A stretch of DNA of 64,000 nucleotides, taken from positions 26,104 through 90,103 of the forward strand of contig CABYJX010000003.1 in NCBI GenBank assembly GCA_902519405.1, given 5' to 3'. The notes beneath the pieces are model-generated. The model was not told where the DNA came from. It ran no database searches and saw nothing but the letters and a program-made list of their open reading frames with translations. The position numbers and the translations under genes were made by a program. Positions 20,942-50,728 of the stretch are shown piece after piece. The first letter of the stretch is position 1. Each line of letters begins with the position of its first letter. The DNA is from an uncultured Gammaproteobacteria bacterium. GTDB lineage: Bacteria; Pseudomonadota; Gammaproteobacteria; Pseudomonadales; Halieaceae.

Positions 20942-21619
20942 CTATAACCGTTTTAATCTAAGTGCCAAAGCATGCTCGTAAAGCACCATATCCTTACGAT
21001 GAAACATCTCTATTTCTTTTTTTAACCTATCATCTATCGAGTAACTGTTTTCACGTTGATCCGGATTTATATTAGCTGAGACAAATTTTTGATTAGAACC
21101 GAACATTTCTCGTGACAAGAAGTTCATATCTTCTTCGAAAAATTCAGTTATTCCAATAAAATTGAAGCGCTTTAAGGGGAAACCCCATAAAAACTTTGAA
21201 TATATATTACGTACCTCTTCGCCAAGACAAAAACGTCTCAAACTCCACTTCTCTCGGATGAACCGTTCTCTCAGAGTTTCCTTCTTAGAAAATGACGTCT
21301 CGCGGGTCCAATAGTGATAGTGTGAAAGCAAGCGTTCCACAGGATGACGAAACCAGGTGAGGAAAAATGTATCTTCAGAGTAAATAAATCTATATTTCAA
21401 CGGCATGAAATGGCCATGTATACACTCAATATTTTTATAAACAGAGAGATTCAGCGCATTTTTGGACATAGAAAAGATTGCATCTTTCCTTTTTAAATAT
21501 TTTGATTCGTGGAGGATTTTATCCTCGTAGTCTCTTACTAACTTTGCACCATACATTTTTTCAAATAGATGCAGACATGTAGTGCCAGCGGCCTTTGGCA
21601 TATGAACAGAGATCAACAT
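20942..21619 (-). CDS. sulfotransferase family protein (PAPS-dependent, Sulfotransfer_2 type)
   Basis: A 225-residue protein with the two PAPS-binding motifs of carbohydrate sulfotransferases. The 5'-phosphosulfate loop is PKAAGTTC at residues 8-15, and the 3'-phosphate site is WFRHPVERLLSHYHYW at about 89-104. It has no signal peptide or membrane segment, so it should act in the cytoplasm, probably on a sugar acceptor. The acceptor cannot be read from the sequence. It lies 219 bases downstream of the large sulfotransferase/glycosyltransferase fusion in the same direction, which suggests a shared sulfated-glycan product. The 219-base gap contains no gene I can support. Confidence 0.78.
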   Translation of the reverse strand: MLISVHMPKAAGTTCLHLFEKMYGAKLVRDYEDKILHESKYLKRKDAIFSMSKNALNLSVYKNIECIHGHFMPLKYRFIYSEDTFFLTWFRHPVERLLSHYHYWTRETSFSKKETLRERFIREKWSLRRFCLGEEVRNIYSKFLWGFPLKRFNFIGITEFFEEDMNFLSREMFGSNQKFVSANINPDQRENSYSIDDRLKKEIEMFHRKDMVLYEHALALRLKRL

Positions 21620-21838: not shown

Positions 21839-24800
21839 TTAGGAGAGAGATGTATCACTTTTTTCTGGACTTCCGAAATCTTCTAATATAATTTTTCTTG
21901 CTACTTCCTTACCAAAATGAGACTTCAGCCACCCAGAATAATTATCTGTTAATTCTTTTACCTTTAAGGGATTTGAGTGCAGTTCAATTATTTTGCTTGC
22001 AAACTCGAAAGCATTATCTGAGACCTCCATTACTCGATCCGATCCCGGAATACCCTCCACACCAATGGAAGTAGATACTATGGGAACGTTCTGTTGCACG
22101 GACTCTATCACTTTCCCTTTAACCCCAGCCCCAAATCTTAGAGGGACAACGGCCACTTTAATCAAGGAATATCTCGTCGTTAATTCCTCATCAGATAAAA
22201 ATCCCAGGACTTCCACATTGGGCCCGTCCAATACTTCAATAGTTTCAGGAATATTTGAACCAACAATATAAAGGATCACGTCAGGAATCTGTTCTACTAC
22301 GTGCGGTAGGATATCGCGAACAAACCAGGTCATAGCATCAACGTTAGGTGGATGATTAAATCCTCCTACAAATAACAAACCCGATCTTGAACCAAAATCA
22401 TAAGTAGGCATCTTTTCTAAAGATAGCGCGTAAAGTGGTATAGCTCGGGCTCTTACTAATGGATTTTTAGATCGCACCTCCTCAACTTCTACGTTAGACG
22501 GATAGTAGGTAATATCAGTACGTTCAAAAATTTCCTGCTCACGCTTTTCCCAAGAATTTGCCTCATCTTCTAGTTTCTGGGATTTTTTAACCTGAGCTTC
22601 CCTTTTTTTTCTAAGATAGTGAAGATCGTGACCAAAATAGACTATGAGAGGTTTCGGATCTAATTTTTCAATAATATCCAAAAACTGTTCTGCGACATGT
22701 GGTCGCTGAATATAAATAACATCGATATATATGGCATTGGCCTTAAACCAAGCTTTAATATCTCGGGCAATATCCTCACCGAAAATCACTTCTACTCCTT
22801 GGCGCTGAAGGATATCTGTGTAGGGTTGATGAGGAAAGTAGTTTGCTCCCAAGAATATGACCCTGTATCCAAGCTCTATTAATAACAAAATATATTGATA
22901 AGTAGATTTCCCTCCTGCATCTTTATCAAAATGGGGGACATAATGATCTATTACTAGAATAGTTCTTTTGTTACCACTCCGCTCTCTGGCGTAGCTGATA
23001 TTCGTACCATTTTCATAGTGATTTTCTTCAAGCAAGGCTGCCCATTTTTTTCTGAAGATTTCCTTATTTCTTGACTGATATTTTTTAACTCCAGTACTTA
23101 AATCTTTACCATTTGTGACGCCCTCGTAGTGAATTACTCTGGCCTTTGGTTGATAGACTACTTTGTATCCTGCCTCTCGAATTGTAAATGCAAGATCTGT
23201 ATCCTCGTAATACGCTGGAGAAAATCGTTCATCAAAACCACCTACGCTATCCCACAATGCTTTTCTGAGCAATAAACAAGCGCCAGATATATAGTCTACC
23301 TCTTTGCAGTAATTGAATTGCGGTGCGTGTGGCGACTCGTCCCTGCCATAATTCCATCCAGATCCATCTTTCCAAATAATACCACCTGCCTCCTGCAATC
23401 TACCATTTGGAAAGACAAGCTTTGGACCCACCATTCCCACTGATGGGTCCTTTTTCAAGGTCTCAAGCAATTCAGCCAACCAACCAGCTTCTACAGACGT
23501 ATCATTATTGAGTAATACCAGAAAGCGGCTCTTTACCTCTCTGACTGCGATATTACAATTTCGTAAAAAACCTATATTACTTTTTTGATGGACTACTTTT
23601 ATCCCTTCTATTCGCTCTTCAATATTTTTGGTTAAGTCAGTTGAATGATCATCGCCTACAACGATTTGATATGAAATTTCTTTTGTATTCTCATAAATCG
23701 ACCGAAGACATGTCAAGGTAGTACTGTATTCATTGTAAACCGGCACTATGATGGTAACTTCAGGTTCCATGTGAACATCAAACTGCATCCGATAATTTTC
23801 AATCTCCGTAGCAGCTATGCTCTTCACATTAATAGACTGGTCTTGCTCGTCCTCTGGAAATCGCGAGTGGGTCCAGGTCGCTAGATTTTGAGCACTCATT
23901 CGAAAACATATTTTAAATAACTTCCCTAACCTGTTCCAACTGAGACTTCGAATAGAACTGGCCGGGTGAAGTATAATATAACGACAAATTCGAAGTATTG
24001 ACGCCAGTCGTCTGACAGGCGCCTGAGGGGGTTCAAAATCAAACTGAGTAAAGTGTTGGCTAGCTCGCATAATCAGCTCAAGATACGGCGTAGTGCGATC
24101 TCTTTGAAAACTAATAAACCTATATAAGCGACTCATAATACGACTGAGTTTTGCTTGGAAAGATGTCTCATACAGTAATAAGTTACGATAAACATCGGTC
24201 AATTCATGAAAAAGATAGTTAGCCTTATCGTCTAGATCTCGAACTTTCGCTTCTAGATCTCGAACTTTCACTTCTAGATTTTTTCTTGTCCTTACCTCTA
24301 GATGATGGGCCTCAGATAAGCTTTGATGCTCAATATTTAGAGATGAATATTTGGCCTCTAGCTCCTCATTATTTTTTTTGTCCAGCTGGTACGCTCGTCC
24401 GAGATCCATGTGATCACTTTCAAGTACCTTATAATGGCTAAGCAAATCAGTATGTTTTTCTTTCTCTGCCTCGTGCGCTAACGCAAGTTCTTTCTGGTCA
24501 TTTTCAAGCGTCTTGTAGTGTGCCAGTAAATCAGTATGTTTCTCCTTCTCTGCCTCGTGCGCATTGACCAATGCCACATACCTGCTTTCCTGAGATTTTA
24601 GCTCTGAAAAAACATGATCGCGCTCCTCTGACACCTCATCTAATCGATTAAGATTCTCCAGAGCTTTTGAAAGCGGCGCTAATGTTTGAGAAAAATCTTG
24701 TATTCGTGCACCTAAAGCGGGATCTACTCGTAGTGATTCATGGTGATCACTTTTAGATATTTTACTCCTTGCACTAAGAAGATTAAGGTAGTTCTCCACA

Positions 24801-25507
24801 GAGATCTGAGAAGGCGTCATTATTTTCTCAATATCTTCTTCTTGAGAAATTTTAGAAGTAACCAAAGATGGACTAAATGCGGCAAGGGCGCCGGTCAAAT
24901 CTGCATCAGATTTTTCTAAAACACCTAATTTTATTAGTCCCTGATACAACAGTTTAATCTCATGTTCAGGATCGAGAATAAAATGATCATAAGAGAGGAA
25001 TAAGCTGTCGCCTGGGTTTGGAAACGCGGCTAGATACTGACGGTTATAGTATTCCCAGAGATCCAATCCAAAACTAATTGGAAACTCATGCCGATTTCTA
25101 AGTGATTGTGCCACGGCTAGCGGAGATCTATAAATTATTATAGGTACAACGCTATCGAGCACCTCCTTCCATAGGGGCCAGGTTAATAAAAATCGGGGGT
25201 CTTTAATTAGCCAACGTGACCCACTGGAGGATAGCATCTCCAAGATAGACATCATACTCGACGTATAATCTCTTTCGAAAGAGGAAGTAGGTGGGTTAAA
25301 CCAACTTCCCCCAGCCTCCTCTAGGATTAAATCGTTTAGCTGAACAACATCTCGACGTTCCCAGAACCCCTTAGGATTATCTACTTGCGGTTCTAAAAGT
25401 TCTTCAGCCTTGCCAGCATAGAACCCAAGCTTAGTCAGCACATCAGCTAGCATGGATGTGCCAGATCGATGCATACCTAATACAGCGATATTTTTTTTCT
25501 TTATCAA
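21839..25507 (-). CDS. giant fusion: sulfotransferase - coiled coil - GT2 - GT4 glycosyltransferase
   Basis: A 1222-residue protein with four parts. Residues 1 to about 215 are a sulfotransferase-like P-loop domain (GMHRSGTS at 11-18; YRSPLAVAQSLRNR at 126-139). Residues about 285-440 are a coiled coil with internal repeats. Residues about 583-800 are a GT-A family 2 glycosyltransferase: TIIVPVYNE at 585-593, DDHSTD at 619-624, the NND nucleotide-sugar site at 667-669, and the EDTD acid at 768-771. Residues about 847-1215 are a GT-B family 4 domain, with FVGGF at 1046-1050 and FGAGVKGKVIE at 1125-1135. All four motif sets look intact. The start appears to be TTG. It probably builds and sulfates a surface polysaccharide; substrates are unknown. 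GT2-GT4 fusions are known from capsule and O-antigen loci, and the sulfotransferase head is the unusual part. Confidence 0.85.
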   Translation of the reverse strand: MIKKKNIAVLGMHRSGTSMLADVLTKLGFYAGKAEELLEPQVDNPKGFWERRDVVQLNDLILEEAGGSWFNPPTSSFERDYTSSMMSILEMLSSSGSRWLIKDPRFLLTWPLWKEVLDSVVPIIIYRSPLAVAQSLRNRHEFPISFGLDLWEYYNRQYLAAFPNPGDSLFLSYDHFILDPEHEIKLLYQGLIKLGVLEKSDADLTGALAAFSPSLVTSKISQEEDIEKIMTPSQISVENYLNLLSARSKISKSDHHESLRVDPALGARIQDFSQTLAPLSKALENLNRLDEVSEERDHVFSELKSQESRYVALVNAHEAEKEKHTDLLAHYKTLENDQKELALAHEAEKEKHTDLLSHYKVLESDHMDLGRAYQLDKKNNEELEAKYSSLNIEHQSLSEAHHLEVRTRKNLEVKVRDLEAKVRDLDDKANYLFHELTDVYRNLLLYETSFQAKLSRIMSRLYRFISFQRDRTTPYLELIMRASQHFTQFDFEPPQAPVRRLASILRICRYIILHPASSIRSLSWNRLGKLFKICFRMSAQNLATWTHSRFPEDEQDQSINVKSIAATEIENYRMQFDVHMEPEVTIIVPVYNEYSTTLTCLRSIYENTKEISYQIVVGDDHSTDLTKNIEERIEGIKVVHQKSNIGFLRNCNIAVREVKSRFLVLLNNDTSVEAGWLAELLETLKKDPSVGMVGPKLVFPNGRLQEAGGIIWKDGSGWNYGRDESPHAPQFNYCKEVDYISGACLLLRKALWDSVGGFDERFSPAYYEDTDLAFTIREAGYKVVYQPKARVIHYEGVTNGKDLSTGVKKYQSRNKEIFRKKWAALLEENHYENGTNISYARERSGNKRTILVIDHYVPHFDKDAGGKSTYQYILLLIELGYRVIFLGANYFPHQPYTDILQRQGVEVIFGEDIARDIKAWFKANAIYIDVIYIQRPHVAEQFLDIIEKLDPKPLIVYFGHDLHYLRKKREAQVKKSQKLEDEANSWEKREQEIFERTDITYYPSNVEVEEVRSKNPLVRARAIPLYALSLEKMPTYDFGSRSGLLFVGGFNHPPNVDAMTWFVRDILPHVVEQIPDVILYIVGSNIPETIEVLDGPNVEVLGFLSDEELTTRYSLIKVAVVPLRFGAGVKGKVIESVQQNVPIVSTSIGVEGIPGSDRVMEVSDNAFEFASKIIELHSNPLKVKELTDNYSGWLKSHFGKEVARKIILEDFGSPEKSDTSLS
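24233..24277 (-). repeat. two 21-base in-frame repeats in coiled coil
   Basis: Two nearly identical 21-base units encode the heptads LEVKVRD and LEAKVRD, followed by a degenerate third (LDDKANY). A seven-residue repeat is a clean coiled-coil register. The near identity at the DNA level indicates recent slippage or duplication rather than old divergence. Confidence 0.7.
24416..24559 (-). repeat. 81-base in-frame tandem repeat in coiled coil
   Basis: Residues 317-337 and 344-364 of the fusion protein are almost the same: AHEAEKEKHTDLL, then A/S, HYK, T/V, LE and N/S-D. The period is 27 residues (81 bases), with high DNA identity between copies. The period is one residue short of four heptads, so the second copy shifts coiled-coil register. 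Confidence 0.75.
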
Positions 25508-25558: not shown

Positions 25559-26449
25559 TTAATAGGCATTTATCACTTTCTTTAACGCCTTTGGATAAAT
25601 TTTCGTATTCTCTCCTAGCGAAAATGTATCTCGGTACTGAGCTAATTTCGCTTGCTTATACTCTTGTTCCAGTTGTTTAATGAGGCCTTTCTTCATTTCA
25701 TTGAATGGTCGATATCCTTCTCTAATTCTATCCAGTCGAATAATGTGAACTCCGAATTTACTCAACACAATTTTTGAATAATCACCCACCTTTTCGATAG
25801 AATATAGGCCTTTGACATATTCTCTAACGAACCTGTTATCTAAACGCTCTATCCAAGCCTCTATTTTTCCTTTGTTATTTCTGCTTCCAGGGTCATTCGA
25901 ATATTCTATTACGAGCGCTTCAAAATTTTCACCGGAAACGAGTCGCTCACGCAATTTACGTCCTTCGGCAATTTTGTCCATCGGATCACAAGCTTCGTTG
26001 CATGAGAGAAGAATATGCGAAGATTGACGACCTTCTGGAATTTTCGCGATTTTATCTTTATTTCCATCATATCTCTCGCGGGCTAATTTCGAAAAATTAG
26101 GCATCTTAAGATCATTTAGAAATTTTTTTTCCATAAAAGTTAAACGGGCTGTTTGTAACGATAACACTAGCCTCCAATAGTCGAACCCATCTTCATCATA
26201 CGATAATGTCTCAGCTTCTGCGGCGATTCGCTTATTTTTGATTACCTCATTTAAAAACTCCCAAGTTGCCTCGGGACCACCTTGTTTGAGTTGCTCAATA
26301 ATATCCGGATGTAAGGTATCTAGAAGAGCCTCAAGTTCGATATCACTTATAGTAGTATCCCCATCTTCGACCACCGATGATGCAACGGTTGGTAGCGCTA
26401 AAAATAGCCAAAGATAAGCAACGCAACAAAGAATTGAAATTTCTCTCAT
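25559..26449 (-). CDS. periplasmic parvulin-type peptidyl-prolyl isomerase
   Basis: A 296-residue exported protein. A signal peptide (ISILCCVAYLWLFLALPTVAS) is followed by a helical region. The rotamase domain is at about residues 145-245, beginning QSSHILLSC and including FEALVIEYSNDPGSRNNKG and the final FGVHIIRLD motif typical of PpiC/SurA parvulins. The C-terminal 45 residues are charged and helical. It probably helps fold or protect exported proteins in the periplasm. It is directly downstream of the gene for the 634-residue exported protein, separated by a strong terminator, so it needs its own promoter or read-through. SurA is unlikely, since only one parvulin domain is present. Confidence 0.85.
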   Translation of the reverse strand: MREISILCCVAYLWLFLALPTVASSVVEDGDTTISDIELEALLDTLHPDIIEQLKQGGPEATWEFLNEVIKNKRIAAEAETLSYDEDGFDYWRLVLSLQTARLTFMEKKFLNDLKMPNFSKLARERYDGNKDKIAKIPEGRQSSHILLSCNEACDPMDKIAEGRKLRERLVSGENFEALVIEYSNDPGSRNNKGKIEAWIERLDNRFVREYVKGLYSIEKVGDYSKIVLSKFGVHIIRLDRIREGYRPFNEMKKGLIKQLEQEYKQAKLAQYRDTFSLGENTKIYPKALKKVINAY

Positions 26450-26477: not shown

Positions 26478-26506
26478 TAAAAAAAAACCGGCGCCCTAAG
26501 CGCCGG
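26478..26506 (-). terminator. rho-independent terminator after the 634-residue protein gene
   Basis: The stem CCGGCGC (26488..26494) pairs perfectly with GCGCCGG (26500..26506), with a five-base loop, followed on the minus strand by about ten T (A run 26478..26487). It is the strongest terminator in the window. It lies about 33 bases past the stop of the upstream gene, as expected for a highly transcribed unit. Confidence 0.92.
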
Positions 26507-26538
26507 CTTTAAACACTAACTTAAGTTAGTTGTACTTC

Positions 26539-28443
26539 TTACCAACCACCAGACGATTGTCCGTATGAGTGGTCGATTGCTCGTCCAAAGTTCATGGCAG
26601 CATCAGCTGTAATATTACGCTCCCATACTGCGAAGCCAACTACCGGCGCTTTAGTGTTCTGCCACCCTGTTGGGGCCGCACCCTTACCGCTAACACCGTT
26701 CTGACCAGTAGGACTAGGGAAGAAAAGCTCCCTGTCAGAGGTTTGCGCAGTGAAGGCCATATTAGCCCAACCACTTTCAGCTCCAGTCAACGCCCAGTTT
26801 GCAACGAGAACGCTACTATTAAGCACGCCCAATCCTGCACCCTGACCAGCATCGTGTGTAGAGCCACCAAATGAAAGCACGTTCACTTCATTTGATAACG
26901 ACTTAGCTGCTGGAGTTGCAGCCGAGGCACAGTCATCAGTAGATGGCGATACTGTAATACCACCAGCGGCACAGGAAGATACCTCACTAGTCTCGCTAGT
27001 TTCTTCCCTATCATACATAGTCATGGTGTATGTGAGAGGCAAGTCGTCAGCACTGGACTTAGTCTGGTTAGTTGCTGCGATGGTTCCAGAAGCGTTACTT
27101 GGAGGCAATGGCCGCCAATCCTGCATCACGTACTGACCAGGCAGAGTCACGACCCAATCGGTAGTAACTGTACGGGTAGTACTGGAAACAGCAGCCCACT
27201 CATTCTTGAGCGCCTCTTTACCCCACAAGTTGTTAGCGCGGAGCTTAGAGAACTTACCGAACAAGTTCTGACTTGCTGTTATTAGGCTGTCTGAACAGAG
27301 TGCGCCAAGACCAACACCACCTCTTGTGGTAACAGTGGTATTGTCTCTAGTCTCACATACTGAATCAGCTGCAGCACTTCCGTCTGCGATTGTTGTTCCT
27401 GCGCCCCAAGGACCACCGTCAAGGTTCGGCAATTCAAAGTTAAGAGGGTCAAACTGAATTGCACCATCTTGCTTAATGATCTTTTCCTGGTTTGTCATCA
27501 TTGGGGAGTCAGCAAACTTGCTAATGTGAGCCGCGTCACCACCAAATTCCAACGCTCTTGCGGTATCTCTGACGAACCATGAAACTTTCAACGCCTCATC
27601 TGGAGTATCGGTCCAGGTGGTCAAAGTTCCACCTGTTACACCATCTGCAGTTTCGTCGAAGTCACACGTACCGTAACCACCAGTTGCCTTAGAGGTGTTA
27701 TCGCCACAGTATCGCTGGTTGGCAGCAGTGTTCTCACTAGTATCAGTATTCATGTTTCGATAGAAATTCTTCTCTACAGTCGCACAATCTAGTGGAACTC
27801 CTTTAGCGTGCTTGGCATTTTTTCCAACAGCAGTAGTCTGTGCCGCTTCGCCCATACCGATAATCTCTACGTAACCCTCACGGGCATCAGTGGAATCAGG
27901 CATAGTAAATGTCTTATTACCGCTGGCATCAGCAGCCGCATTAGGAACGGTACATGAAGTGTCGCTAGTGCTGACAATGACACTGCCAGAAGCATCGGCG
28001 TGAATAGCACCTGCCCACACATCCGCTGGAGACATCACGACGTTAAAGTCGAGTGCATCAGCAGAATCCGTGGCACGTCTGAGACGTACTTTAACGGCCT
28101 GTGTCGCTGCTGTAGTGTTCACAATGTGCACACCAGTTACAAAAGTTCCTACAGTTGTGTAGTAAGGGACAATTGCCGCATCGCCACGAACGTTATAAGC
28201 ACTTAACGTACCAGCTTCACCACGCGCCTGACAAGTTGCCTGAAGTTCACCTGGGTCACCGGCAGGGGTAAGGGCCGGACAATCGCCGGAGGCCTGACTT
28301 GCCGCGTTTGTGTTGTCGTTAGACTCGAATACATCGAGGTTATTACCCGATGCAGCTGCACCGTATACTTGCACTGTACCAACCATGGTGGCCGTTGCGC
28401 CAGCAACGCCAATGGCAAGTCCAATCTTTCTAAAGTTACTCAT
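26539..28443 (-). CDS. large exported Ala/Thr/Asp-rich protein of unknown family
   Basis: I do not recognise this 634-residue protein. Residues 1 to about 30 form a signal peptide (FRKIGLAIGVAGATATMVG) with a likely cleavage after VYGAA or nearby. No further membrane segment is evident. The mature part is rich in Ala, Thr, Ser, Asp and Gly and contains about a dozen Cys. It ends SYGQSSGGW, not the Phe-terminated strand of an outer-membrane barrel. Base composition is clearly higher in G+C than its neighbours (bases 26641..26700 are 37 of 60 G+C). With the AGGAG site and strong terminator, this suggests high expression. It lies between a periplasmic foldase and a type II secretion operon, so it could be an abundant surface-layer or secreted protein. 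No adhesin, S-layer homology or enzyme motif is visible. Confidence 0.8.
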   Translation of the reverse strand: MSNFRKIGLAIGVAGATATMVGTVQVYGAAASGNNLDVFESNDNTNAASQASGDCPALTPAGDPGELQATCQARGEAGTLSAYNVRGDAAIVPYYTTVGTFVTGVHIVNTTAATQAVKVRLRRATDSADALDFNVVMSPADVWAGAIHADASGSVIVSTSDTSCTVPNAAADASGNKTFTMPDSTDAREGYVEIIGMGEAAQTTAVGKNAKHAKGVPLDCATVEKNFYRNMNTDTSENTAANQRYCGDNTSKATGGYGTCDFDETADGVTGGTLTTWTDTPDEALKVSWFVRDTARALEFGGDAAHISKFADSPMMTNQEKIIKQDGAIQFDPLNFELPNLDGGPWGAGTTIADGSAAADSVCETRDNTTVTTRGGVGLGALCSDSLITASQNLFGKFSKLRANNLWGKEALKNEWAAVSSTTRTVTTDWVVTLPGQYVMQDWRPLPPSNASGTIAATNQTKSSADDLPLTYTMTMYDREETSETSEVSSCAAGGITVSPSTDDCASAATPAAKSLSNEVNVLSFGGSTHDAGQGAGLGVLNSSVLVANWALTGAESGWANMAFTAQTSDRELFFPSPTGQNGVSGKGAAPTGWQNTKAPVVGFAVWERNITADAAMNFGRAIDHSYGQSSGGW

Positions 28444-28445: not shown

Positions 28446-28458
28446 TAGGAGACTCCTA
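28446..28458 (-). promoter_or_regulatory. ribosome binding site inside a 13-base inverted repeat
   Basis: The AGGAG Shine-Dalgarno of the 634-residue protein gene lies in TAGGAGTCTCCTA, a perfect inverted repeat around its central base, three bases before the ATG. A second hairpin, 28515..28530 (six-base stem, four-base loop), sits just after the stop of the preceding lipoprotein gene. The stems are short, so a control role is only a possibility. Confidence 0.35.
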
Positions 28459-28535: not shown

Positions 28536-28967
28536 CTACTTCACCCTGTCGACGTAATACCAACTACCGCCCACCAGTTTCCAACTTTCATCGATCGTGG
28601 TCGGCGACTTGCCTAACGCGAGCGAAGCGGCTGGAGCACCCGGCCTCGATGAGATCATGACTCTCACCGCGACACTAGCCACAGCTGCATCCGCATCATA
28701 GGCAAGCAATTGTACTCCTGTCAACTCATACTCAAGTAAACCATAAAAGTTTTTGTAATAACTTTCTCGAGGAAATATCCTTTTATACTCAGGCGTGGAG
28801 AACTCCCAGGTACCAGAATAGTCCCTCGCAGAGTAAAAATCCCATCTCCGCTCTACTCGCTCTACCAACAGCTGCTTTAACTCGTCCGTTATGACGGGCT
28901 GCCCGGCACAGCCCACAAAAATCAAGGCTAGCGATAGAGAAGTTACAAAGAAAGCCTTTCTAAACAT
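28536..28967 (-). CDS. small outer-membrane-type lipoprotein, unknown function
   Basis: A 143-residue protein with an unmistakable lipoprotein signal: positively charged start, hydrophobic core and the lipobox FVGC at 17-20. Residue +2 is Ala, so it should be sorted to the outer membrane. The mature part has the look of a small alpha-plus-beta NTF2-like fold (WDFYSARDYSGTWEFSTPEYKR..., closing ESWKLVGGSWYYVD), but I cannot assign a family. It is 92 bases before the 634-residue exported protein gene and in the same direction, so it could belong to the same unit. Confidence 0.78.
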   Translation of the reverse strand: MFRKAFFVTSLSLALIFVGCAGQPVITDELKQLLVERVERRWDFYSARDYSGTWEFSTPEYKRIFPRESYYKNFYGLLEYELTGVQLLAYDADAAVASVAVRVMISSRPGAPAASLALGKSPTTIDESWKLVGGSWYYVDRVK

Positions 28968-28991: not shown

Positions 28992-29267
28992 TTATATATA
29001 CTTTTTATCTGAAGATCTGGTTTGTGTTAAACTATAAATCATCGTTCCTGAGTAAAACGTCGTTAATTTTGCCAAAGCCATATCCATAAAAAAAGAAAAG
29101 GTAGTAACAAGCAAAACGATCTTATGTTGGTAGCTTGATGTATCATGGTACTCAACACTAAATCTCATCTGAATACTGCCGGCAGAGTCAAATAACGATA
29201 GATACATCCTGAAAGCCTTACTGACCCTAAAATCTAATAGAAACGTGAAAATTACCAATATAGTCAT
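28992..29267 (-). CDS. possible 91-residue hydrophobic protein overlapping the end of gspD
   Basis: An open frame whose ATG overlaps the gspD stop by four bases (ATGA), the arrangement of translational coupling. The product has two hydrophobic stretches (TILVIFTFLLDF and IVLLVTTFSFFMDMALA) but no family signature I recognise. Codon use is AT-rich and the residue mix is not convincing. If it is not real, 28968..29263 (296 bases) is an empty stretch after the secretion operon. It may be the remnant of a former last gene of the operon. Confidence 0.3.
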   Translation of the reverse strand: MTILVIFTFLLDFRVSKAFRMYLSLFDSAGSIQMRFSVEYHDTSSYQHKIVLLVTTFSFFMDMALAKLTTFYSGTMIYSLTQTRSSDKKYI

Positions 29268-31396
29268 TTTTCTATCAATTTCATTTCTCTAACTCGAGCA
29301 CGCATATCTTTACTGACCTCTCTTAGCTGGTTGTCATCATACAATGCTCTAGGGGTGATAATCACGACGAGCTCTGTGCGGATACCAGATTTAATGCCTT
29401 TACCAAAAGCCGCTCCCAAAACAGGAATCTTGTGAAGCCAAGGAACACCCTCTCCACTTTTTGACGCATTGTCGCGAATGAGTCCACCCAACACCACAGA
29501 CTCGCCAGAGCGAACCGAGACCTTACTCTGAATCTCTCGGTTCATGAAACTACGCTGCCCAGTAGCAGCATCCTCTAACCCTACGTCAGTAACCGATTGA
29601 GAAACCTCCATCGTTACCAAACCTCCAGCGTTTACAGAGGGGGTCACTGTTAACTGAACACCAGTATCCCTATACTCAATACTCTGGATAGAATTACCCC
29701 CATCCGTAAAAGCGGTCCCCGTAAGGATAGGCACTTGGTCACCCACCTGAATAGTAGCCGTGCTATTGTCTAGCACCATGACGGAGGGAGAAGAGATCAC
29801 GTTAACCAATGATTCACTTGACAGCATATTTAACACACCACTGATCCCTCCACTGGAATTTGCGACGGTATAATTAAAACCGGGGTAGGTACCGGATGGA
29901 GTTCCGGAAGAACTCAAACCACCGAAACCTGAATAATCAGAGCCACCCAGCCCCCCACTTCTGAAGGCCCATTCCAATCCGTATCGTAATTTATCCGTGA
30001 GCGTGACTTCCAAAATACTGGCCTCAATCAAAATCTGTGTGGCGGCTACGTCGAGTTTTTCTAACGCCGCCTCTATCTTTCGAAACTGCATCCCAGTGGA
30101 GTAAATCATTAACGAGTTATTTTCCTCATCTGCTACCACACGCACATCGTCGATAATTGAATTATAATTAGCGCTGTTAGACACAACCGAGACACCCTCT
30201 GCAGCTGCAGCACTCTGTCCTGTTCCAATATTCTCGGGTTTCATCCCTGGAGCAACTCCACCATTGCTACTCCCTCTTCGCCCATTTCCACTGGAGGAAC
30301 TGGTAGCACCGCGAGAATATATTTTTGTCAAAAGTACTGCCAAGCGCTCCGACGTCGTATTCTGAACGGGGTAGACGTAAAGCCTTTTTTCACCAAAACT
30401 TGTCTCCGGATTATCAAGTCTCTCTATCCACTTGCGTACGGTATCTAGATAGTGAGCCCTGGGAGTAACCACGAGAATACTTGCAAGGCGAGCAAACGGT
30501 ATAATTCTGACCATCGGCGCGAGGTCTTCGACCATTTCTTGACTACCTGTCATACCCGACTTTGCATCCGATCCCGAGGACTTTCCCAACAAAACATTTA
30601 GTGCTTCGGCCGTCTCTTCTACCCCACTATTTCGAATGGGGAATAATCCAACCGACATTCCCGCCATTCGATCCACATCGAATGTTTGTACTATATCTAA
30701 CCAGCCTGAGAGCTGCGCACGGGTTCCTGCCAACATCAATAAGTTTCGAACATTATCCACGCGTACAAAAGCTGTTTCGTCAGCTAGAGGCCTAAGAATC
30801 TCTTCCATATCTGAGGCGCCAATATATTCCAACGAGACGATGACGGTGCTGTAACCGGCATCTGCGTCCTTTGGATTGCCCACCGATGGATAAAGCTTAG
30901 ATCCTCGTCCGGACTCTGTTATCAAATATCTGTTGTCCTCATCTTTGATCATCATAACGCCATTGGCGTTTAGTAGGGATTCCAACACAAACAGCAATTT
31001 ACTCCTTGAGATCGGTGCCTTTGTTCTCAAAGTGACGTTGCCACTAACAGACCCATCCACCACGTAATCTAACTTCAAAATATCAGACATCACCGCATGC
31101 ATCACCTCAGCAAGAGGTGCATTTTCAAAATTAAGTGACACATCGTCTCCCACAAATTGGAGAGGACTTCGAACCTCGGGCATTTTAATCTGTCTGTCAG
31201 TACCCATGTAGATAATAGGTTGATCCTTTCTATCTTTTGTCGACTCCAACTCTTTGACTAGCGATACGGAATTTCTATTTCCCACTTTCCTGTCCAAGAG
31301 AACATTCTCCGATTCACCTTGAAGTAAATTCGAACAGCCACTACACGCCAGATTAACGACCAAGAACAGCCAACAACTACGGCCTATAAAATTCAT
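29264..31396 (-). CDS. gspD: type II secretion system secretin GspD, lipoprotein type
   Basis: The outer-membrane channel of the type II secretion system. Residues about 1-21 are a signal ending in a lipobox (ACSGC, Cys21), so this is a liposecretin. The N0 domain (LNFENAPLAEVMHAVM) and N1-N3 domains (ASDMEEILRPL, then ETAEALNVLLGKS, then SERLAVLLTKIY) follow. The secretin core includes VGDQVPILTG, VLGGLIRD and the closing VPWLHKIPVLGAAFG...LVVIITPRAL. A Gly/Ser/Asn-rich stretch in the N3 region (about 360-400) is normal for the family. It is the last canonical gene of the operon. A lipid anchor would let the secretin reach the outer membrane without a separate pilotin (inference, by analogy with HxcQ of Pseudomonas). 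Confidence 0.95.
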   Translation of the reverse strand: MNFIGRSCWLFLVVNLACSGCSNLLQGESENVLLDRKVGNRNSVSLVKELESTKDRKDQPIIYMGTDRQIKMPEVRSPLQFVGDDVSLNFENAPLAEVMHAVMSDILKLDYVVDGSVSGNVTLRTKAPISRSKLLFVLESLLNANGVMMIKDEDNRYLITESGRGSKLYPSVGNPKDADAGYSTVIVSLEYIGASDMEEILRPLADETAFVRVDNVRNLLMLAGTRAQLSGWLDIVQTFDVDRMAGMSVGLFPIRNSGVEETAEALNVLLGKSSGSDAKSGMTGSQEMVEDLAPMVRIIPFARLASILVVTPRAHYLDTVRKWIERLDNPETSFGEKRLYVYPVQNTTSERLAVLLTKIYSRGATSSSSGNGRRGSSNGGVAPGMKPENIGTGQSAAAAEGVSVVSNSANYNSIIDDVRVVADEENNSLMIYSTGMQFRKIEAALEKLDVAATQILIEASILEVTLTDKLRYGLEWAFRSGGLGGSDYSGFGGLSSSGTPSGTYPGFNYTVANSSGGISGVLNMLSSESLVNVISSPSVMVLDNSTATIQVGDQVPILTGTAFTDGGNSIQSIEYRDTGVQLTVTPSVNAGGLVTMEVSQSVTDVGLEDAATGQRSFMNREIQSKVSVRSGESVVLGGLIRDNASKSGEGVPWLHKIPVLGAAFGKGIKSGIRTELVVIITPRALYDDNQLREVSKDMRARVREMKLIEK

Positions 31397-31415
31397 AAAA
31401 TATTCCCTGAGTTCA

Positions 31416-32078
31416 TTATTTAGCCCAACTACCGACAGTTATTTCACTTACAAAGTTACTTTTTTTACGACAGATACTGGGATCCATTTTACAGGCGAGT
31501 GGATTGGCTCGTCTAAGATGACGATCATCTTTGTGGGATCCATATGTGAATACCACCTTCTCCTCATCTACCTCAGATAACGTCCAGCCATCGAGTATAG
31601 ACTCTCCTATTAAAAGGCGAACTTCCTTACCATCCATATTAAGAATCGCCCCACCTGTATCACCTCCACCAAAAATTCCCACTACATTCACGTGCTGCGA
31701 TATCTTTTTGGGAGGCTTTGGTGCTGCGGCTACCACTTTTGGTTTAGGACTTTGTTTTTCTTCTACTACTTGTGGCTTTGGCTCTAAATCGATAGCCTCT
31801 CGTTTTCGCGTTTCCCAAAACAAAGGCCTCTCAATCAACTCTCGCAATAAATCGGGAGAGATGTCAGCATTGTCGACGGCGCTTATCACCTCCAAAATTT
31901 CGGACAGAGGAGGCTTTGGTTTTGGCGAGGAATCAGCAAAAATTTGAAAAGCTCCAACTATTATCTGTATACACAAAATTGCTAAAAAAAAGATCAGACA
32001 CAGCTCAATGCGACGCTCGAAACAAAGAGGTGCATCTTTAACACGATATCTCTCTAAAACAATATCAATTGAAATCAC
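31416..32078 (-). CDS. gspC: type II secretion system protein GspC (XpsN-like, no PDZ domain)
   Basis: The inner-membrane clamp linking the secretin to the inner-membrane platform. One membrane helix lies at about residues 27-48 (IFFLAILCIQIIVGAF). A Pro/Lys-rich linker (about 95-130) leads to the homology-region domain, VNVVGIFGGGDTGGAILNMDGKEVRLLIGESI. It ends at 220 residues after a short tail with two Cys (LACKMDPSIC), without PDZ or coiled-coil domain. This matches the XpsN/GspC type located just before gspD. It overlaps gspM by four bases and precedes gspD by 19. Confidence 0.82.
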   Translation of the reverse strand: MISIDIVLERYRVKDAPLCFERRIELCLIFFLAILCIQIIVGAFQIFADSSPKPKPPLSEILEVISAVDNADISPDLLRELIERPLFWETRKREAIDLEPKPQVVEEKQSPKPKVVAAAPKPPKKISQHVNVVGIFGGGDTGGAILNMDGKEVRLLIGESILDGWTLSEVDEEKVVFTYGSHKDDRHLRRANPLACKMDPSICRKKSNFVSEITVGSWAK

Positions 32079-32641
32079 TGAACCACCCTAAGCGAGGTTA
32101 GTTTGAATCTTGCCGTCACGGTCTGCCGATAGTTAGTTTGAGCAGCACTCTTTCTACGATTGGGATAAACATTTAATGACTCTATCAATACTAACGGGCG
32201 ATAGGCATCTAACCCTGTCAAAGCAAGATCTAATTCTTGAATAGTACCTACGGAAGTTACATTCAAGCCAATAAGATCAAATCTTCCTTCTCTCCGTATT
32301 TTTTGTAACTGACTATTAGATACAGTCAATCCTGCTTCTATCATAATTCTTCTCAACTCCGCTTGAAGAGCCGCTGAAATAACAGACTCCTGCTCCGTAG
32401 ACGGATAAACAAGTGATTTACTTCCATCACTAACTATCAAAAGCGATTCCTTCATCTTCTCCTCAGACTCAATGAGCCCAAGCAGTCGAGAAATTCTGGG
32501 AGTTATATTCGCTATTTCATCTCGCGATTCTATAGAATGCCCTACTAGAATAGTGGCTAAATGGATAAATGCATATATCGGCAATAAAAAAGTAAACGCA
32601 ATTACCAATGCATCTTTGCGGTAAAAACGAACCCACCTCAT
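32075..32641 (-). CDS. gspM: type II secretion system protein GspM
   Basis: A 188-residue inner-membrane protein with one N-terminal helix (ALVIAFTFLLPIYAFIHLATILVG). A short coiled region and a ferredoxin-like periplasmic domain (about 85-185) follow, as in GspM/PilO-type platform proteins. Identification rests mainly on topology and position between gspL and gspC, since sequence conservation in this family is low. Four-base overlaps on both sides indicate translational coupling. Confidence 0.8.
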   Translation of the reverse strand: MRWVRFYRKDALVIAFTFLLPIYAFIHLATILVGHSIESRDEIANITPRISRLLGLIESEEKMKESLLIVSDGSKSLVYPSTEQESVISAALQAELRRIMIEAGLTVSNSQLQKIRREGRFDLIGLNVTSVGTIQELDLALTGLDAYRPLVLIESLNVYPNRRKSAAQTNYRQTVTARFKLTSLRVVQ

Positions 32642-33657
32642 CGTACGGCCTCATCCTGGATTTCGATATCTAGATTAAACTGCTCCATTCCAGAGTTCCC
32701 TAGCCGGATAATTGCTTGAGGTGCCGTGACGTTTGCGTAATTCTTCTCGTCAGCCAGCTGTCGCATGAGCTTTGCCGCATCTTTAGATTTTCCCCGGAGA
32801 CGAATTTGATTACCTGTTATTCTAAACTCTTGCAAAAAGGCGTCGTCACCCAAGAGCGCGGTCAGTTGCACTAATTGCGCTCGCGGGCTCGGATACTTAC
32901 TCATGAGATCATTCACCGCGTTAACGGTGCGGTTTGCCTCACCAAGCCTTTTACGAAAAACCATCGCCCTTGATGCCTGCTCTCTGACCAACTTTTCTTC
33001 GTTATGTAACTGATCTAATCTAATCTTTTTAACAGCGGCATCGATCCCAATAGAAAGCAACACTCCAGTAAAAAGGAAAAAAGTTAACATAGAGACACGA
33101 ATCAATCTGCGGGTATAACGAGACATACGCAACCTCTCTCCAAAACCTTGAAAGACTACCCAGTGTCCATCTACTCGTGCCCACACCTCGGCTTGGGTTA
33201 AATCTAAAGCATCATACCTAGATCGCAGATAGTCATTGATATCTGAATTGGAAGCAAGAGCCAATCTGACAATAAATTGCCCTGTATCAGACAGTTCACG
33301 CATCCATCCCCAGCTAGTGTCTTCTTGAGCAAATGGGCTACTCGCTATAACCTCATTAACTAGAATAGTTTTAAGCTCTCCCAAACTCATGATTGGTAAA
33401 ATCAGTTTTCTTTCCAAGAATAAAGAATCCGGAAGAGCAATAGCTTCTAGGTCTGCCCCCCCTTCATCGACCTTATTACCGGATTGGTAAATTTCAATAC
33501 TGCTCTCTGAAATTAATTTAATTTTTTCGTCGAAAGGCTTCCTAATGGGAGAATCTTCTCCCCAGAGAAACTCAGTCCAAGACGCTTTCCAGACGCGCAC
33601 AAACTCGCGAGTGTCAATACCAAAAAGCATCCAGTTTTGATTTTTTACCGCCATCAA
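32638..33657 (-). CDS. gspL: type II secretion system protein GspL
   Basis: A 339-residue bitopic protein joining the cytoplasmic ATPase GspE to the platform. The cytoplasmic actin-like part (about 1-190) has the conserved LPIMSLGELKTILVNEVIASSPF stretch, in which most of the family's recognisable sequence lies. One membrane helix follows at about 195-215 (VSMLTFFLFTGVLLSIGI). The periplasmic ferredoxin-like domain ends near 335. It is at the short end of the family (about 340-400). Start is TTG or ATG at 33657/33654. It lies 16 bases after gspK and overlaps gspM. Confidence 0.85.
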   Translation of the reverse strand: MMAVKNQNWMLFGIDTREFVRVWKASWTEFLWGEDSPIRKPFDEKIKLISESSIEIYQSGNKVDEGGADLEAIALPDSLFLERKLILPIMSLGELKTILVNEVIASSPFAQEDTSWGWMRELSDTGQFIVRLALASNSDINDYLRSRYDALDLTQAEVWARVDGHWVVFQGFGERLRMSRYTRRLIRVSMLTFFLFTGVLLSIGIDAAVKKIRLDQLHNEEKLVREQASRAMVFRKRLGEANRTVNAVNDLMSKYPSPRAQLVQLTALLGDDAFLQEFRITGNQIRLRGKSKDAAKLMRQLADEKNYANVTAPQAIIRLGNSGMEQFNLDIEIQDEAVR

Positions 33658-33673
33658 TCTTCCTTATCCTTTA

Positions 33674-34519
33674 TCAAAGCGCTTGGTCAAGATATATTCT
33701 GGCAGGCTCAACACGCCAAGATTTCCACCTAATGGCGGAACCCGTCCTCGCGCCTCGCTTGATCCATTGCCGGCGCAGCCATTTCTTGCCCGAATGTTCT
33801 ATTATTGCATCTACTCTCAGGCTTCGACTAGATGACAAAAGTACGGTATCCAGAGGGACTAGATTAAGTTCCTCTTCGGTGAAACGATTTGCTTCTATCA
33901 AAATATCTTTTATAAATCGCGGCATAAAAATACTGGGGGGCTCACCTCTATTTTGTGTTACAGGACCAACATATATATGATCTCGAAAAGCATCATATAT
34001 TCTCCTATCCACCCCTGGTGCCAAGAGGATATCCTCTAATGTCCTTAGAACGGAATCACGTCTGCCCTCAGACTTCAATTCGTTTCTCCAAGAGCCAATA
34101 TCTGCAGAAACAGTCTCGGCCTCTAGTACGTTAATCCCCCGCTTCATTAGAAGGTTCTGGAGAACATCAACAGATACGGTTCGAAGATTGAGTAACGCTT
34201 CGCTAGGTAGTGCCGTTAGGACTACTCGTTTGAAACCCACCTGATAGGTATTAGAATGCTCCAAAATAAATTGACCGTCAGATTCCTCTTCCCTAATCAG
34301 ATCTGCTAGAAATAATAGCGTAGCTCCATCTCCAGCGGCCACAGCTACTGATTGTGCTGCATGAACCTGGGCAAGCTTCAGATCGACTCTCGCGTGCGAG
34401 ACAATCCCTGCCACCAGTAAGGACATCGCAGCAACAAACCAGAGCACTAGTGCTAAGGCTATCCCATGTTCATATCTGAGATTTCTCAACCACTTACCCT
34501 CATAACTAGATCGGGCCAA
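33674..34519 (-). CDS. gspK: type II secretion minor pseudopilin GspK
   Basis: A tip pseudopilin, 281 residues. The N-terminal hydrophobic helix EHGIALALVLWFVAAMSLLVAGI follows a short basic leader, and residues 18-19 (HG before IALAL) fit a prepilin peptidase site. The globular region includes the helix-rich insert typical of GspK (LLAPGVDRRIYDAF, and later FTEEELNLVPLDTVLL, a SAM-like fold). GspK lacks the canonical Glu5 in most species; the corresponding residue here is also not Glu. It starts inside the end of gspJ (34-base overlap). Confidence 0.85.
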   Translation of the reverse strand: MARSSYEGKWLRNLRYEHGIALALVLWFVAAMSLLVAGIVSHARVDLKLAQVHAAQSVAVAAGDGATLLFLADLIREEESDGQFILEHSNTYQVGFKRVVLTALPSEALLNLRTVSVDVLQNLLMKRGINVLEAETVSADIGSWRNELKSEGRRDSVLRTLEDILLAPGVDRRIYDAFRDHIYVGPVTQNRGEPPSIFMPRFIKDILIEANRFTEEELNLVPLDTVLLSSSRSLRVDAIIEHSGKKWLRRQWIKRGARTGSAIRWKSWRVEPARIYLDQAL

Positions 34520-35989: not shown

Positions 35990-36041
35990 ACTTGGCCTGC
36001 CTAGCGCCTCCTGTAATTTCAGTTATGACTCCGAAAAATTT

Positions 36042-36479
36042 CTAATTCCAATTCTTAATATCAGTATCTTCTTTGTCTCCACCGGGCGTTCCATTTTTTC
36101 CATAGCTTGTAATATCGAATTCCGCATGCTCACCCGGAAACTTGTAAAAATATTCCTTTTTCCAGGGGTCCTTGGGTATATCACCCTTCAAGTAGGGCCC
36201 ATTCCAACCATCTGCGCCACTGGGTTTTTTAATCAATGCTTCAAGACCATCCATAGTGGACGGATAATTACCAACATCCAGACTATACATCTCTAGGGCT
36301 TGCTCAAAGTCCTTTATTTGGATCATTGCGGTTTTACTTTTAGCACCTCCTAATTGATTTAAAACTTGCGGACCAACCAGACTCATTAGTAATCCCATTA
36401 TGGCCAAAACTACTAACAGTTCTAGAAGTGAAAATCCCAGCTGGCGCCGCTGAGGGCCGGTGTACCGAATTTTAATCAT
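36042..36479 (-). CDS. gspG: type II secretion major pseudopilin GspG
   Basis: The main subunit of the pseudopilus, 145 residues. The leader ends QLG, followed by FSLLELLVVLAIMGLLMSLVGP. The conserved GspG C-terminal part is clear: DVGNYPSTMDGLEALI, WNGPYLKGDIPKDPWK and the calcium-site loop region FDITSYGKNGTPGG. Complete and standard length. Confidence 0.96.
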   Translation of the reverse strand: MIKIRYTGPQRRQLGFSLLELLVVLAIMGLLMSLVGPQVLNQLGGAKSKTAMIQIKDFEQALEMYSLDVGNYPSTMDGLEALIKKPSGADGWNGPYLKGDIPKDPWKKEYFYKFPGEHAEFDITSYGKNGTPGGDKEDTDIKNWN

Positions 36480-36525
36480 GAGTTATTTCCCTTTCTAAAA
36501 TACTTCAAATACTTCGACGCATAAA

Positions 36526-37725
36526 TCAGATTGCCAAATCATTTACAGACATAATTCCCATCAAGATAGCAATAATAATAGACGCGATCATAGCGCCCAT
36601 CATAAGGATCAATACTGGCTCCAAGAAAGCGAGGCCTCTTTTAACTCCAGATTGGACATGATCATCAAAAACTTTAGCCAACTCGAGCATCATTTTATCT
36701 AAGTTACCGGACTCCTCGCCAACACGAATCATTTGTATGACCATGGGAGTAAAGAGTTTATTTTGATCTAATGCAGCAGAAATCCGCTGTCCCGCCTTAA
36801 CCGTTGGACCCAGTACCTGGAGGGATTCTCGAATAATTTGATTGTCTACTGTATCGACTGATATGGAAATTGCTTTTAACATCGATACCCCATTCACTAA
36901 TAACGTGCCCAGCGCACGAGCAAATTTTGCGATCTCAAACTCAAACAAAATATTCCCAATTAGCGGCAGCTCTAACAACTTACGATGGAGGGTTTCTCTA
37001 CCTTGATCACCGGCCAGCCATTGCTTTAAAATCCAGCCCATAGCAAACATCAAAAAAAGCAGGAGCCAACCCCAGGAGGCCATAAAATCTCCTAGATTAA
37101 TTACTACTCTGGTTATCGCTGGCAAAGCCTCTCCCATGTCTGCAAAAAGGGCTTCAAATTGAGGCACCACAAAACCCAGCATAAAGGCAACCGAAAGTAC
37201 GGCAACAAATAACAAGATGGCCGGATAAATCAGAGCAGAAACAACCGTATCCCGATTAGCTTTGGCTTGCTCGAGATATTCTACCAAACGATCAAGTATC
37301 TCGGACATTTGTCCACTAGCTTCTCCTGCACGAATCATACTGATATAAAATCCACCAAAGGTGTCTTGATAGTTTTCAAGAGATACGCTGAGAGACTTCC
37401 CGCCTTTCACCGACTTCAATAGATCACTTAGAAGAAAACGGCTTGTCGGTTGATTTGCCATATCTATGAGTACTTTCAGCGATTTATCCAAAGGTAGGCC
37501 CGCTCTGAGCATGACCGCGAGCTCTGTGGTGAAAGATAATAATTCTGCTCTGCTTAAAACACCACTAGCTTCATCGAGCTCTTGCTCTGAATCTTCCTGC
37601 AGTTTTAGTAGTGTCAGTCCCTGCGCGCGCAAATGTGTCGCCACAAACTCGGGTCCAGGGGCATCGATAACCCCATCGCGTGGCTTTCCATCCTGACCGA
37701 TTGCTTTATAGTGAAACTCAGCCAC
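36526..37725 (-). CDS. gspF: type II secretion inner-membrane platform protein GspF
   Basis: A polytopic platform protein with two homologous cytoplasmic domains of the T2SSF family. The first has the GLPLDKSLKVLIDMA stretch, the second the GVSMLKAISISVDTV stretch, and three membrane helices lie around 165-190, 220-240 and 370-395. The signature FGGFYISMIRAGEASGQMSEIL is intact. The frame is open back to 37773, inside gspE. I prefer the GTG at 37725 because the protein then begins with the family-typical (M)AEFHYKAIGQDG and clears the gspE stop by ten bases. Confidence 0.93.
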   Translation of the reverse strand: MAEFHYKAIGQDGKPRDGVIDAPGPEFVATHLRAQGLTLLKLQEDSEQELDEASGVLSRAELLSFTTELAVMLRAGLPLDKSLKVLIDMANQPTSRFLLSDLLKSVKGGKSLSVSLENYQDTFGGFYISMIRAGEASGQMSEILDRLVEYLEQAKANRDTVVSALIYPAILLFVAVLSVAFMLGFVVPQFEALFADMGEALPAITRVVINLGDFMASWGWLLLFLMFAMGWILKQWLAGDQGRETLHRKLLELPLIGNILFEFEIAKFARALGTLLVNGVSMLKAISISVDTVDNQIIRESLQVLGPTVKAGQRISAALDQNKLFTPMVIQMIRVGEESGNLDKMMLELAKVFDDHVQSGVKRGLAFLEPVLILMMGAMIASIIIAILMGIMSVNDLAI

Positions 37726-37735
37726 TTTGCTTAAC

Positions 37736-39484
37736 TTATATAGATGCTGATGAAATTTTAGCGAGATCTTCATCGCTGGTTAGCTGATCAACTTCAATCT
37801 GATCCTGAGTGACACGCAGGACCTCTTCTAGCGAAGTCTGTCCAGTAACCACCTTACGAAGCCCGTCCTCAAATAACGTAATCATACCTTGCTCTCGGGC
37901 AATCGCATGCAGGGTGGTTGCATCCGAACCCTCCATGACGGCGCGCTGCATGACATCATCGAGTAGAAAAAGCTCGTGTATCGATGTTCTTCCTAAATAT
38001 CCGGTATTAATACATTCAGCGCATCCTCGAGCCGAAAAAATCGTCCTGGTGTCCTTGAGAAGAAAACGTTCCAATCCGTGTTTACGTATCTCATGCGGTG
38101 TGAGCTGATAGGGCTCTCTGCAAGTTTTACAGAGAGTTCTCACCAAACGCTGAGCTAATACTCCATTTACGGAGGAATTTATGAGATAACGTTCAACACC
38201 CATATCTTCTAGCCGGGTGATAGCTCCTGCAGCAGTATTTGTGTGGAGAGTAGACAACACTAGGTGCCCAGTTAAAGCCGATTGAACACCTATTTGGGCA
38301 GTTTCAGTATCGCGCATCTCTCCAATCATAATTATATCTGGATCTTGCCTTAATATTGCTCTTAACGCGCGTGCAAAGGTAAGTTCAATTTGTGCTTGTA
38401 CCTGTATCTGATTTACACCTTGCAGTTGATATTCAACCGGATCTTCTACGGTTATAATCTTTAAAGCGTCAGCATCGATAGACGAAAGAGAGGCATAAAG
38501 TGTAGTCGTCTTGCCAGATCCAGTTGGTCCAGTGACCAAAAGCACTCCATGGGGCCTTGCCAAAAGACTTTGGTAACGTTGTAATGTGTCCTCGCTAAAT
38601 CCCATATCAGTAAGACTTAGACGGATGCTTCCCCTATCTAAAACACGCATGACGACACTCTCACCGTGCACAGTAGGAATAGTAGAAACTCTAAGATCCA
38701 GCTCATGCCCTTTAACGCGAGTCATAATTCGACCATCTTGTGGCAATCGCTGTTCAGCTATATTCATATGAGACAAAAGCTTTACTCGGGATGCAATTGC
38801 TGGAGCCAAGCTTAAAATTGGAGGATCGGGATAATCTTGCAAAACGCCATCAACTCTGTAGCGAAGGTGCAGACTTTCTTCAAAAGGCTCTATGTGTATA
38901 TCAGATGCACCCATATCGACTGCGCGATGTATTATTTGGTTTACTAATCTTATTACAGGGGCTTCACTCGCTAAGTCTTTTAGATGCTCTATAAACTCGT
39001 CGTCAGATTGTCCCGCAAAACGATCTGCAATATCCTCACTATCGACTTCATCGACCTCCTCTCTAGCATACATTTGCAGTGCTTTGTTGATATCAGTTTC
39101 CAATCCTAAAACTAGTTTCAGTTTCAAGGCACCGCCTAAAGCCATATTCAAAGCTTTAGATAAAAATGGGTCTTGAGGCGCCGCTGCTGAAAAACAGATT
39201 TCTTTATCGCTGACGGAAATAGGTACAGCCATATTACTCAAGAGAAAGTCTAGAGAAATCTTATCTACTTGGATTGCTTCCGTCGGATAGTCAGAGGAAA
39301 GGACAAGAGGAATTTCATGCTGCTCAGCAAGGGCGCTAGCAAAATCGAGTTCAGAAACTAATCCTAATTTGATAAGTACTTGACCAAACTTCTCGCCCAT
39401 TTCATTTTGAGCAAGAAGGGCACGCTCTACATCCCGCGCGGAAAGCTTACCCTGCTCTACAAGTATTTCTCCAATCTTTTTCAT
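37736..39484 (-). CDS. gspE: type II secretion ATPase GspE
   Basis: The 582-residue cytoplasmic hexameric ATPase that powers the pseudopilus. An N-terminal MshEN-type domain (1 to about 140) is followed by the ATPase core with Walker A GPTGSGKTTTLYASL (about 330-344), the Asp box IITVEDPVEYQL, Walker B (DPDIIMIGEMRD) and the His box. A four-Cys zinc element has CKTC near 457 and CAEC about 30 residues later. Everything looks functional. First gene of the operon, preceded by a 129-base gap. Confidence 0.96.
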   Translation of the reverse strand: MKKIGEILVEQGKLSARDVERALLAQNEMGEKFGQVLIKLGLVSELDFASALAEQHEIPLVLSSDYPTEAIQVDKISLDFLLSNMAVPISVSDKEICFSAAAPQDPFLSKALNMALGGALKLKLVLGLETDINKALQMYAREEVDEVDSEDIADRFAGQSDDEFIEHLKDLASEAPVIRLVNQIIHRAVDMGASDIHIEPFEESLHLRYRVDGVLQDYPDPPILSLAPAIASRVKLLSHMNIAEQRLPQDGRIMTRVKGHELDLRVSTIPTVHGESVVMRVLDRGSIRLSLTDMGFSEDTLQRYQSLLARPHGVLLVTGPTGSGKTTTLYASLSSIDADALKIITVEDPVEYQLQGVNQIQVQAQIELTFARALRAILRQDPDIIMIGEMRDTETAQIGVQSALTGHLVLSTLHTNTAAGAITRLEDMGVERYLINSSVNGVLAQRLVRTLCKTCREPYQLTPHEIRKHGLERFLLKDTRTIFSARGCAECINTGYLGRTSIHELFLLDDVMQRAVMEGSDATTLHAIAREQGMITLFEDGLRKVVTGQTSLEEVLRVTQDQIEVDQLTSDEDLAKISSASI

Positions 39485-40399: not shown

Positions 40400-40417
40400 A
40401 GTTTGCTCCCTAATTAG

Positions 40418-41608: not shown

Positions 41609-41611
41609 CTA

Positions 41612-42760: not shown

Positions 42761-42765
42761 AAAGT

Positions 42766-43653: not shown

Positions 43654-43660
43654 AAAAAAT

Positions 43661-44809: not shown

Positions 44810-44818
44810 ATTAATCTC

Positions 44819-47035: not shown

Positions 47036-47036
47036 A

Positions 47037-47801: not shown

Positions 47802-47818
47802 AAACGGTTCGCCCTCCT

Positions 47819-49684: not shown

Positions 49685-49693
49685 AAAACGCTC

Positions 49694-50566: not shown

Positions 50567-50588
50567 TCAAAGATCCTTTTACCTGTAC

Positions 50589-50631: not shown

Positions 50632-50728
50632 TCGTCAATTCCTACTATCAACATCACAGGGATTGAAACACTGGTTCATCCATGAAATCCATTCCCCTAA
50701 TGAAATAGTTATATGACAGAAACACAGT

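Follow-up and report, generated by a model that had tools for sequence, protein, structure and literature searches.

NpdA was discovered in Delftia as a protein of both the S-layer and the nanopods. It forms an SDS-resistant oligomer above 150 kDa whose assembly is dependent on lipopolysaccharide (LPS), and reassembly of the S-layer protein requires the addition of LPS (PMC3110197). In 2023 it was described as the S-layer protein of Paracidovorax citrulli (PMC10765051), and deletion of npdA leads to the loss of the regular surface layer in both Delftia and P. citrulli (PMC3110197, PMC10765051). Orthologues of npdA, which adjoin gsp clusters, have been reported from 62 betaproteobacterial and 49 gammaproteobacterial species, among them Halieaceae, and npdA itself has been found beside a 12-gene gsp cluster (PMC10765051). 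The ortholog table of that study lists Haliea salexigens, Pseudohaliea rubra, Parahaliea mediterranea and Comamonas odontotermitis, and the strains imaged by cryo-EM include H. salexigens DSM 19537 and Congregibacter litoralis. A bead-like layer was clear in most of the imaged cultures, with two named exceptions, neither of which belongs to the Halieaceae (PMC10765051). Two further systems bear comparison. Slr4 of Pseudoalteromonas is also a marine gammaproteobacterial S-layer protein whose gene adjoins a type II secretion system (T2SS) operon (PMC7821379); however, PMC10765051 regards the two as distinct S-layer proteins. The S-layer gene vapA of Aeromonas likewise lies beside a T2SS that is essential for VapA, as cited in PMC10765051.

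The 64,000-nucleotide stretch analysed here (the window) comes from the 60% complete genome (1.71 Mb) of an uncultured marine member of the Halieaceae. One of its genes is very probably an npdA ortholog, judging by homology and gene order, with a product that belongs to the NpdA family and has a surface-layer role (Table 1). A genomic orphan would thereby join a family whose S-layer function is proven, and an S-layer is predicted for uncultured marine Halieaceae. The mature protein would have a mass of around 62.6 kDa, assuming cleavage near residue 30, and a pI of 4.5.

Table 1. Features of the predicted npdA locus and its surroundings, with positions counted from the first letter of the window.
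Feature	Position	Strand	Evidence
Putative sulfotransferase	20942..21619	-	Weak Pfam matches under cut-off; recurs near npdA in Halieaceae
Sulfotransferase with two glycosyltransferase domains; possible surface-glycan enzyme	21839..25507	-	PF13469, PF00535, PF13692
Parvulin-type peptidyl-prolyl isomerase with signal peptide; putative foldase	25559..26449	-	PF00639 (E 9e-14); conserved 3' of npdA
npdA intrinsic terminator, 12-pair stem (7 GC), 9-T tail	26484..26510 (hairpin 26510-26484)	-	Folding energy
Probable npdA ortholog, predicted exported S-layer protein, 634 aa, ATG start	26539..28443	-	Translation, homology, composition
npdA ribosome-binding site AGGAG, 9 nt 5' of ATG	28453..28457 (minus strand 28457-28453)	-	Sequence reading
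Predicted NTF2-like lipoprotein, 143 aa, lipobox Cys20	28536..28967	-	Model, fold match, co-occurrence with npdA
gspD secretin	29264..31396	-	TIGR02517, 422 bits vs cut-off 351
gspC-like	31416..32078	-	Operon position; weak NCBIfam matches under cut-off
gspM, Xps type (XpsM)	32075..32641	-	NF040576, 76 bits vs cut-off 60
gspL-like	32638..33657	-	Position, conserved synteny; counterpart in locus L226 annotated PilN domain
gspK-like minor pseudopilin	33674..34519	-	NF037980 (E 4e-4), under cut-off; synteny
gspJ, gspI, gspH pseudopilins	34486-35115, 35116-35541, 35531-35989	-	Prepilin-type N-termini; synteny
gspG, gspF, gspE	36042..39484	-	Synteny with annotated Comamonas odontotermitis genes

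The gene had been singled out in the sequence-only reading by its base composition, a good ribosome site, a signal peptide and the strongest terminator in the window, all of which were recovered. Its GC content (50.3%, against an ORF mean of 43.2%) is the highest of the 53 ORFs in the window (z = +2.5) and amounts to 54.6%, 54.3% and 42.0% at codon positions 1, 2 and 3 respectively. The excess at positions 1 and 2 points to amino-acid composition (Ala, Gly and Thr) and not to codon choice; on this ground, and given the syntenic locus, a foreign origin of the gene was rejected. The family alignment shows the signal peptide clearly, and no other T-run candidate in the window folds with as low an energy as the terminator (-18.2 kcal/mol, against -13.7 for the next). 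That the protein is probably abundant, as was also claimed, found no support in codon use. The codon adaptation index was 0.686 against the 0.699 +/- 0.013 expected from codon use in the window, with groEL/groES as the only reference because the incomplete assembly yielded neither ribosomal L14 nor L7/L12, and there was no signal of high expression.

No Pfam or NCBIfam model was matched by the window protein, a PDB sequence search gave no credible relative and a single-sequence search of named genomes gave zero matches. An alignment search of named genomes retrieved 337 related stretches, the best 80 of which came from Halieaceae, Thiothrix, Methylococcales, Lysobacterales, Rhodocyclaceae and others; the nearest named relative is a Halieaceae genome, with 76% identity at this protein. 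Members of the family were found in 16 of 38 related genomes. The connection to the described protein was made through a Delftia genome (G557) recognised by its Omp32, in which few positions differ from PDB 1e54, and the link rests on that recognition of the genome and not on a deposited NpdA accession. This genome contains one family member, located beside gspD, and as NpdA is single copy in Delftia genomes (PMC3110197) this was counted in favour of its identity as NpdA. A Halieaceae profile aligned over 455 columns to a Burkholderiales profile with the Delftia protein at its head (hhalign, Prob 100, E = 6.7e-73), and the window protein alone matched the Delftia protein in phmmer (E = 4.7e-21). 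Whilst the profile homology is full-length, a direct comparison with the Delftia protein shows clear similarity in the N-terminal domain alone (40% identity over 143 residues). In common with NpdA of Delftia acidovorans and P. citrulli, the window protein carries an N-terminal export signal and otherwise no conserved domain, as seen in the alignment and in Pfam and NCBIfam, and its gene follows a gsp T2SS cluster; the protein also retains the family's invariant columns. Species of the published ortholog table were also found here to carry the family, with a single copy in Halieaceae: H. salexigens, P. rubra and P. mediterranea have exactly one member each, and the npdA locus of H. salexigens DSM 19537 (L093) was recovered. 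Going by these alignments, the NpdA S-layer family gains a new and divergent member in the window protein. The description of the protein as unknown therefore gives way to membership of a published family, albeit one with no Pfam or NCBIfam model, so that members are still easily annotated as hypothetical.

The window protein also has an N-terminal extension of around 55 residues (residues 30-84) with two extra cysteines (Cys55 and Cys71), which sets it apart from Delftia NpdA. Among 16 aligned proteins this extension is limited to one genus, represented by the window and locus L031.

Upstream of npdA is a T2SS cluster of 11 genes, from gspD to gspE (29264-39484). It is of the Xps type, with both GspM (XpsM) and GspD above their curated cut-offs. 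A 91-aa ORF at 28992-29267 lacks conservation in the congener and was taken as a chance occurrence. Across the 38 related genomes, XpsM was over its cut-off in all 16 npdA-positive genomes and in one of the 22 others (G023). A closer inspection of the latter reveals that its contig breaks off within gspD, ahead of where npdA would be expected, and as a counter-example it cannot decide the matter. In named genomes, gspD precedes npdA in 61 of 68 loci; the remaining seven have no gspD close by, showing that the link between npdA and the T2SS is not universal. The best reading of this co-occurrence is that the T2SS would be a dedicated S-layer exporter. For VapA, as cited in PMC10765051, dedication of the T2SS was established by genetics, whereas for npdA it is suggested by co-occurrence only.

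T2SS clusters commonly export many enzymes, and the cluster could instead be a general enzyme exporter with NpdA as merely one adjacent cargo, a reading that is also favoured by npdA loci without a nearby gspD, such as those of Methylococcales. However, apart from the contig that ends inside gspD, the XpsM-type T2SS was found, among the 38 related genomes, only in those with npdA, and a general exporter is considered somewhat unlikely.

The lipoprotein encoded between npdA and gspD had no Pfam or NCBIfam match. Its structural model is confident (pLDDT 90.7) and has a predicted NTF2-like alpha+beta fold (Z 12.0, rmsd 3.3, 104 residues aligned; best Foldseek E = 1.3e-4). The gene is directly upstream of npdA in 72 of the 73 named loci with enough flank, and is present in exactly those 16 of the 38 related genomes that contain npdA. 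The chance of such a match is 4.5e-11 for the 38 genomes and 4.9e-7 for the 25 of the family, figures whose strength is overstated as the genomes are related. The position of the lipoprotein directly after gspD in most loci would also suit a pilotin of the T2SS secretin rather than a partner of NpdA. However, it remains directly upstream of npdA in loci without a nearby gspD (L096, L131, L134, L137 and L151), which favours a role in the assembly or docking of NpdA. Furthermore, the pilotins GspS and AspS are not known to share the predicted NTF2-like fold. A pilotin is thus quite unlikely, and the lipoprotein may rather be an assembly or docking factor for NpdA at the outer membrane, a role that is less certain than the family membership of NpdA itself.

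At the level of the class, the tie between the lipoprotein family and NpdA is not exclusive, as family members occur without NpdA. In two genomes (G093 and G301) the lipoprotein is found beside another exported protein. At loci L237 and L240 its neighbour is an exported protein of around 300 aa that has no match to the NpdA profile, and the lipoprotein may serve several surface proteins. Three further loci (L244, L246 and L256) have a parvulin directly upstream of a weak lipoprotein homologue, again without NpdA; a general lipoprotein-foldase pair is possible.

On the other side of npdA, the parvulin contains a PpiC-type rotamase domain (PF00639, 52.7 bits against a Pfam cut-off of 21.7), and a parvulin occurs within 3 kb downstream of npdA in 64 of 68 named loci. 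All 10 Burkholderiales loci contain the lipoprotein, the parvulin and gspD alongside npdA. Comamonas odontotermitis has the order rfb, gsp, lipoprotein, npdA, PPIase, ABC transporter and glycosyltransferases, in which the cluster genes are annotated as gsp genes, hypothetical protein, 'cell surface protein' and peptidylprolyl isomerase; on either side of this cluster are genes for rhamnose and glycans, and in the window the flanking genes encode sulfotransferases and glycosyltransferases. In some Halieaceae, a gene of the type found at 21839..25507 adjoins the npdA cluster. The lipoprotein, the parvulin and the T2SS are conserved partners of npdA across beta- and gammaproteobacteria. The sequence-only reading had set the gene between a parvulin gene, a lipoprotein gene and a T2SS operon, and had proposed that it encodes a surface-layer-like protein or a major type II substrate, served by a foldase and a lipoprotein of its own. 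The neighbours were found as described, the proposed identity is supported by the homology to NpdA and the partnership by its conservation; of that interpretation, only 'unknown' and 'probably abundant' fell away. As conserved partner genes of npdA, the lipoprotein and parvulin seem unreported, as neither is mentioned in the main text of PMC10765051, the supplementary figures of which may show both. The surprise is modest, and this conserved partnership with the T2SS is the part of specialist interest.

Many loci outside the main Halieaceae group have an extra secreted gene between npdA and the parvulin (e.g. L128:11667-12395, L134:11313-13172, L136:11560-12267, L139:11525-12721 and L143:11616-12575). 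These genes share a C-terminal Y-Y/F-x-N ... C ... C motif, and two copies have bacterial Ig/cadherin-like domains. The extra gene may encode a second surface protein of the npdA cluster.

Structure prediction was informative for part of NpdA only. The full-length model was poor (mean pLDDT 55), with confidence restricted to residues ~85-230. The best match to this N-terminal domain was TM1070 (PDB 1nc7; Z 9.1, rmsd 2.5, 106 of 117 residues aligned), a beta-sandwich of the ASRT/ASRAH superfamily, which is predicted to bind sugars (PMC2739507). The likeness is one of fold, from a model of modest quality and with no sequence match. In Foldseek, galectins were ranked first, but these matches were weak (E about 0.01) and no galectin identity is claimed. 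That the predicted beta-sandwich of NpdA may bind an LPS sugar is a lead suggested by the model.

The best reading of the npdA locus is a dedicated cluster for S-layer secretion and assembly, in which the roles of the partners are less certain than the family membership of NpdA. NpdA would be exported via Sec, as its signal peptide suggests, and its folding in the periplasm may be aided by the neighbouring parvulin, as their linkage suggests. The folded protein would then cross the outer membrane through the neighbouring Xps-type T2SS, to which linkage and co-occurrence point, and would assemble into a paracrystalline layer on outer-membrane LPS, in keeping with the LPS dependence reported for the Delftia protein. 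The predicted N-terminal beta-sandwich could bind sugar in this last step, with the NTF2-like lipoprotein as a putative assembly or docking factor at the outer membrane. With the balance of probability somewhat against it, we tentatively propose that these genes constitute an unrecognised conserved NpdA module, comprising an NTF2-like outer-membrane lipoprotein, a client-specific parvulin and a T2SS with one cargo, with docking to LPS through a sugar-binding beta-sandwich, and that relatives of the lipoprotein and the parvulin act on behalf of other exported surface proteins. The strict linkage of the lipoprotein, parvulin and T2SS provides candidates for how S-layer proteins exported by a T2SS fold, cross the outer membrane and attach.

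The window protein could also be an NpdA-family protein, exported by the T2SS to a surface or extracellular location, that has lost the lattice in this genus, for example as part of a loose coat, a vesicle or a biofilm matrix. The genus-specific extension with its two cysteines and the large divergence from the Delftia protein are in line with such a loss, as is the case of Paracidovorax valerianellae, an imaged npdA bearer without a clear lattice (PMC10765051). However, the invariant columns and the entire set of partner genes are kept, making loss of the lattice improbable. A periplasmic enzyme, as might be suggested by the signal peptide and soluble neighbours, can be dismissed as highly improbable, since a match to such a family was looked for in Pfam and NCBIfam and none was found, and the homologues are demonstrated S-layer proteins.

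Three Nitratiruptor plasmids (NZ_AP023066.1, NZ_AP023064.1 and NZ_AP023060.1) carry weak matches to the Delftia protein, in its N-terminal domain, with 31-38% identity over 26% of the query. Elsewhere in the window, a 440-aa ORF without a Pfam match (57571-58893) adjoins a MiaE-like gene. Past the T2SS operon, on the same strand, is a long cluster for acyl-CoA and fatty-acid metabolism (39614-56876), containing acyl-CoA dehydrogenases, a thiolase, a CoA transferase and AMP-binding ligases.
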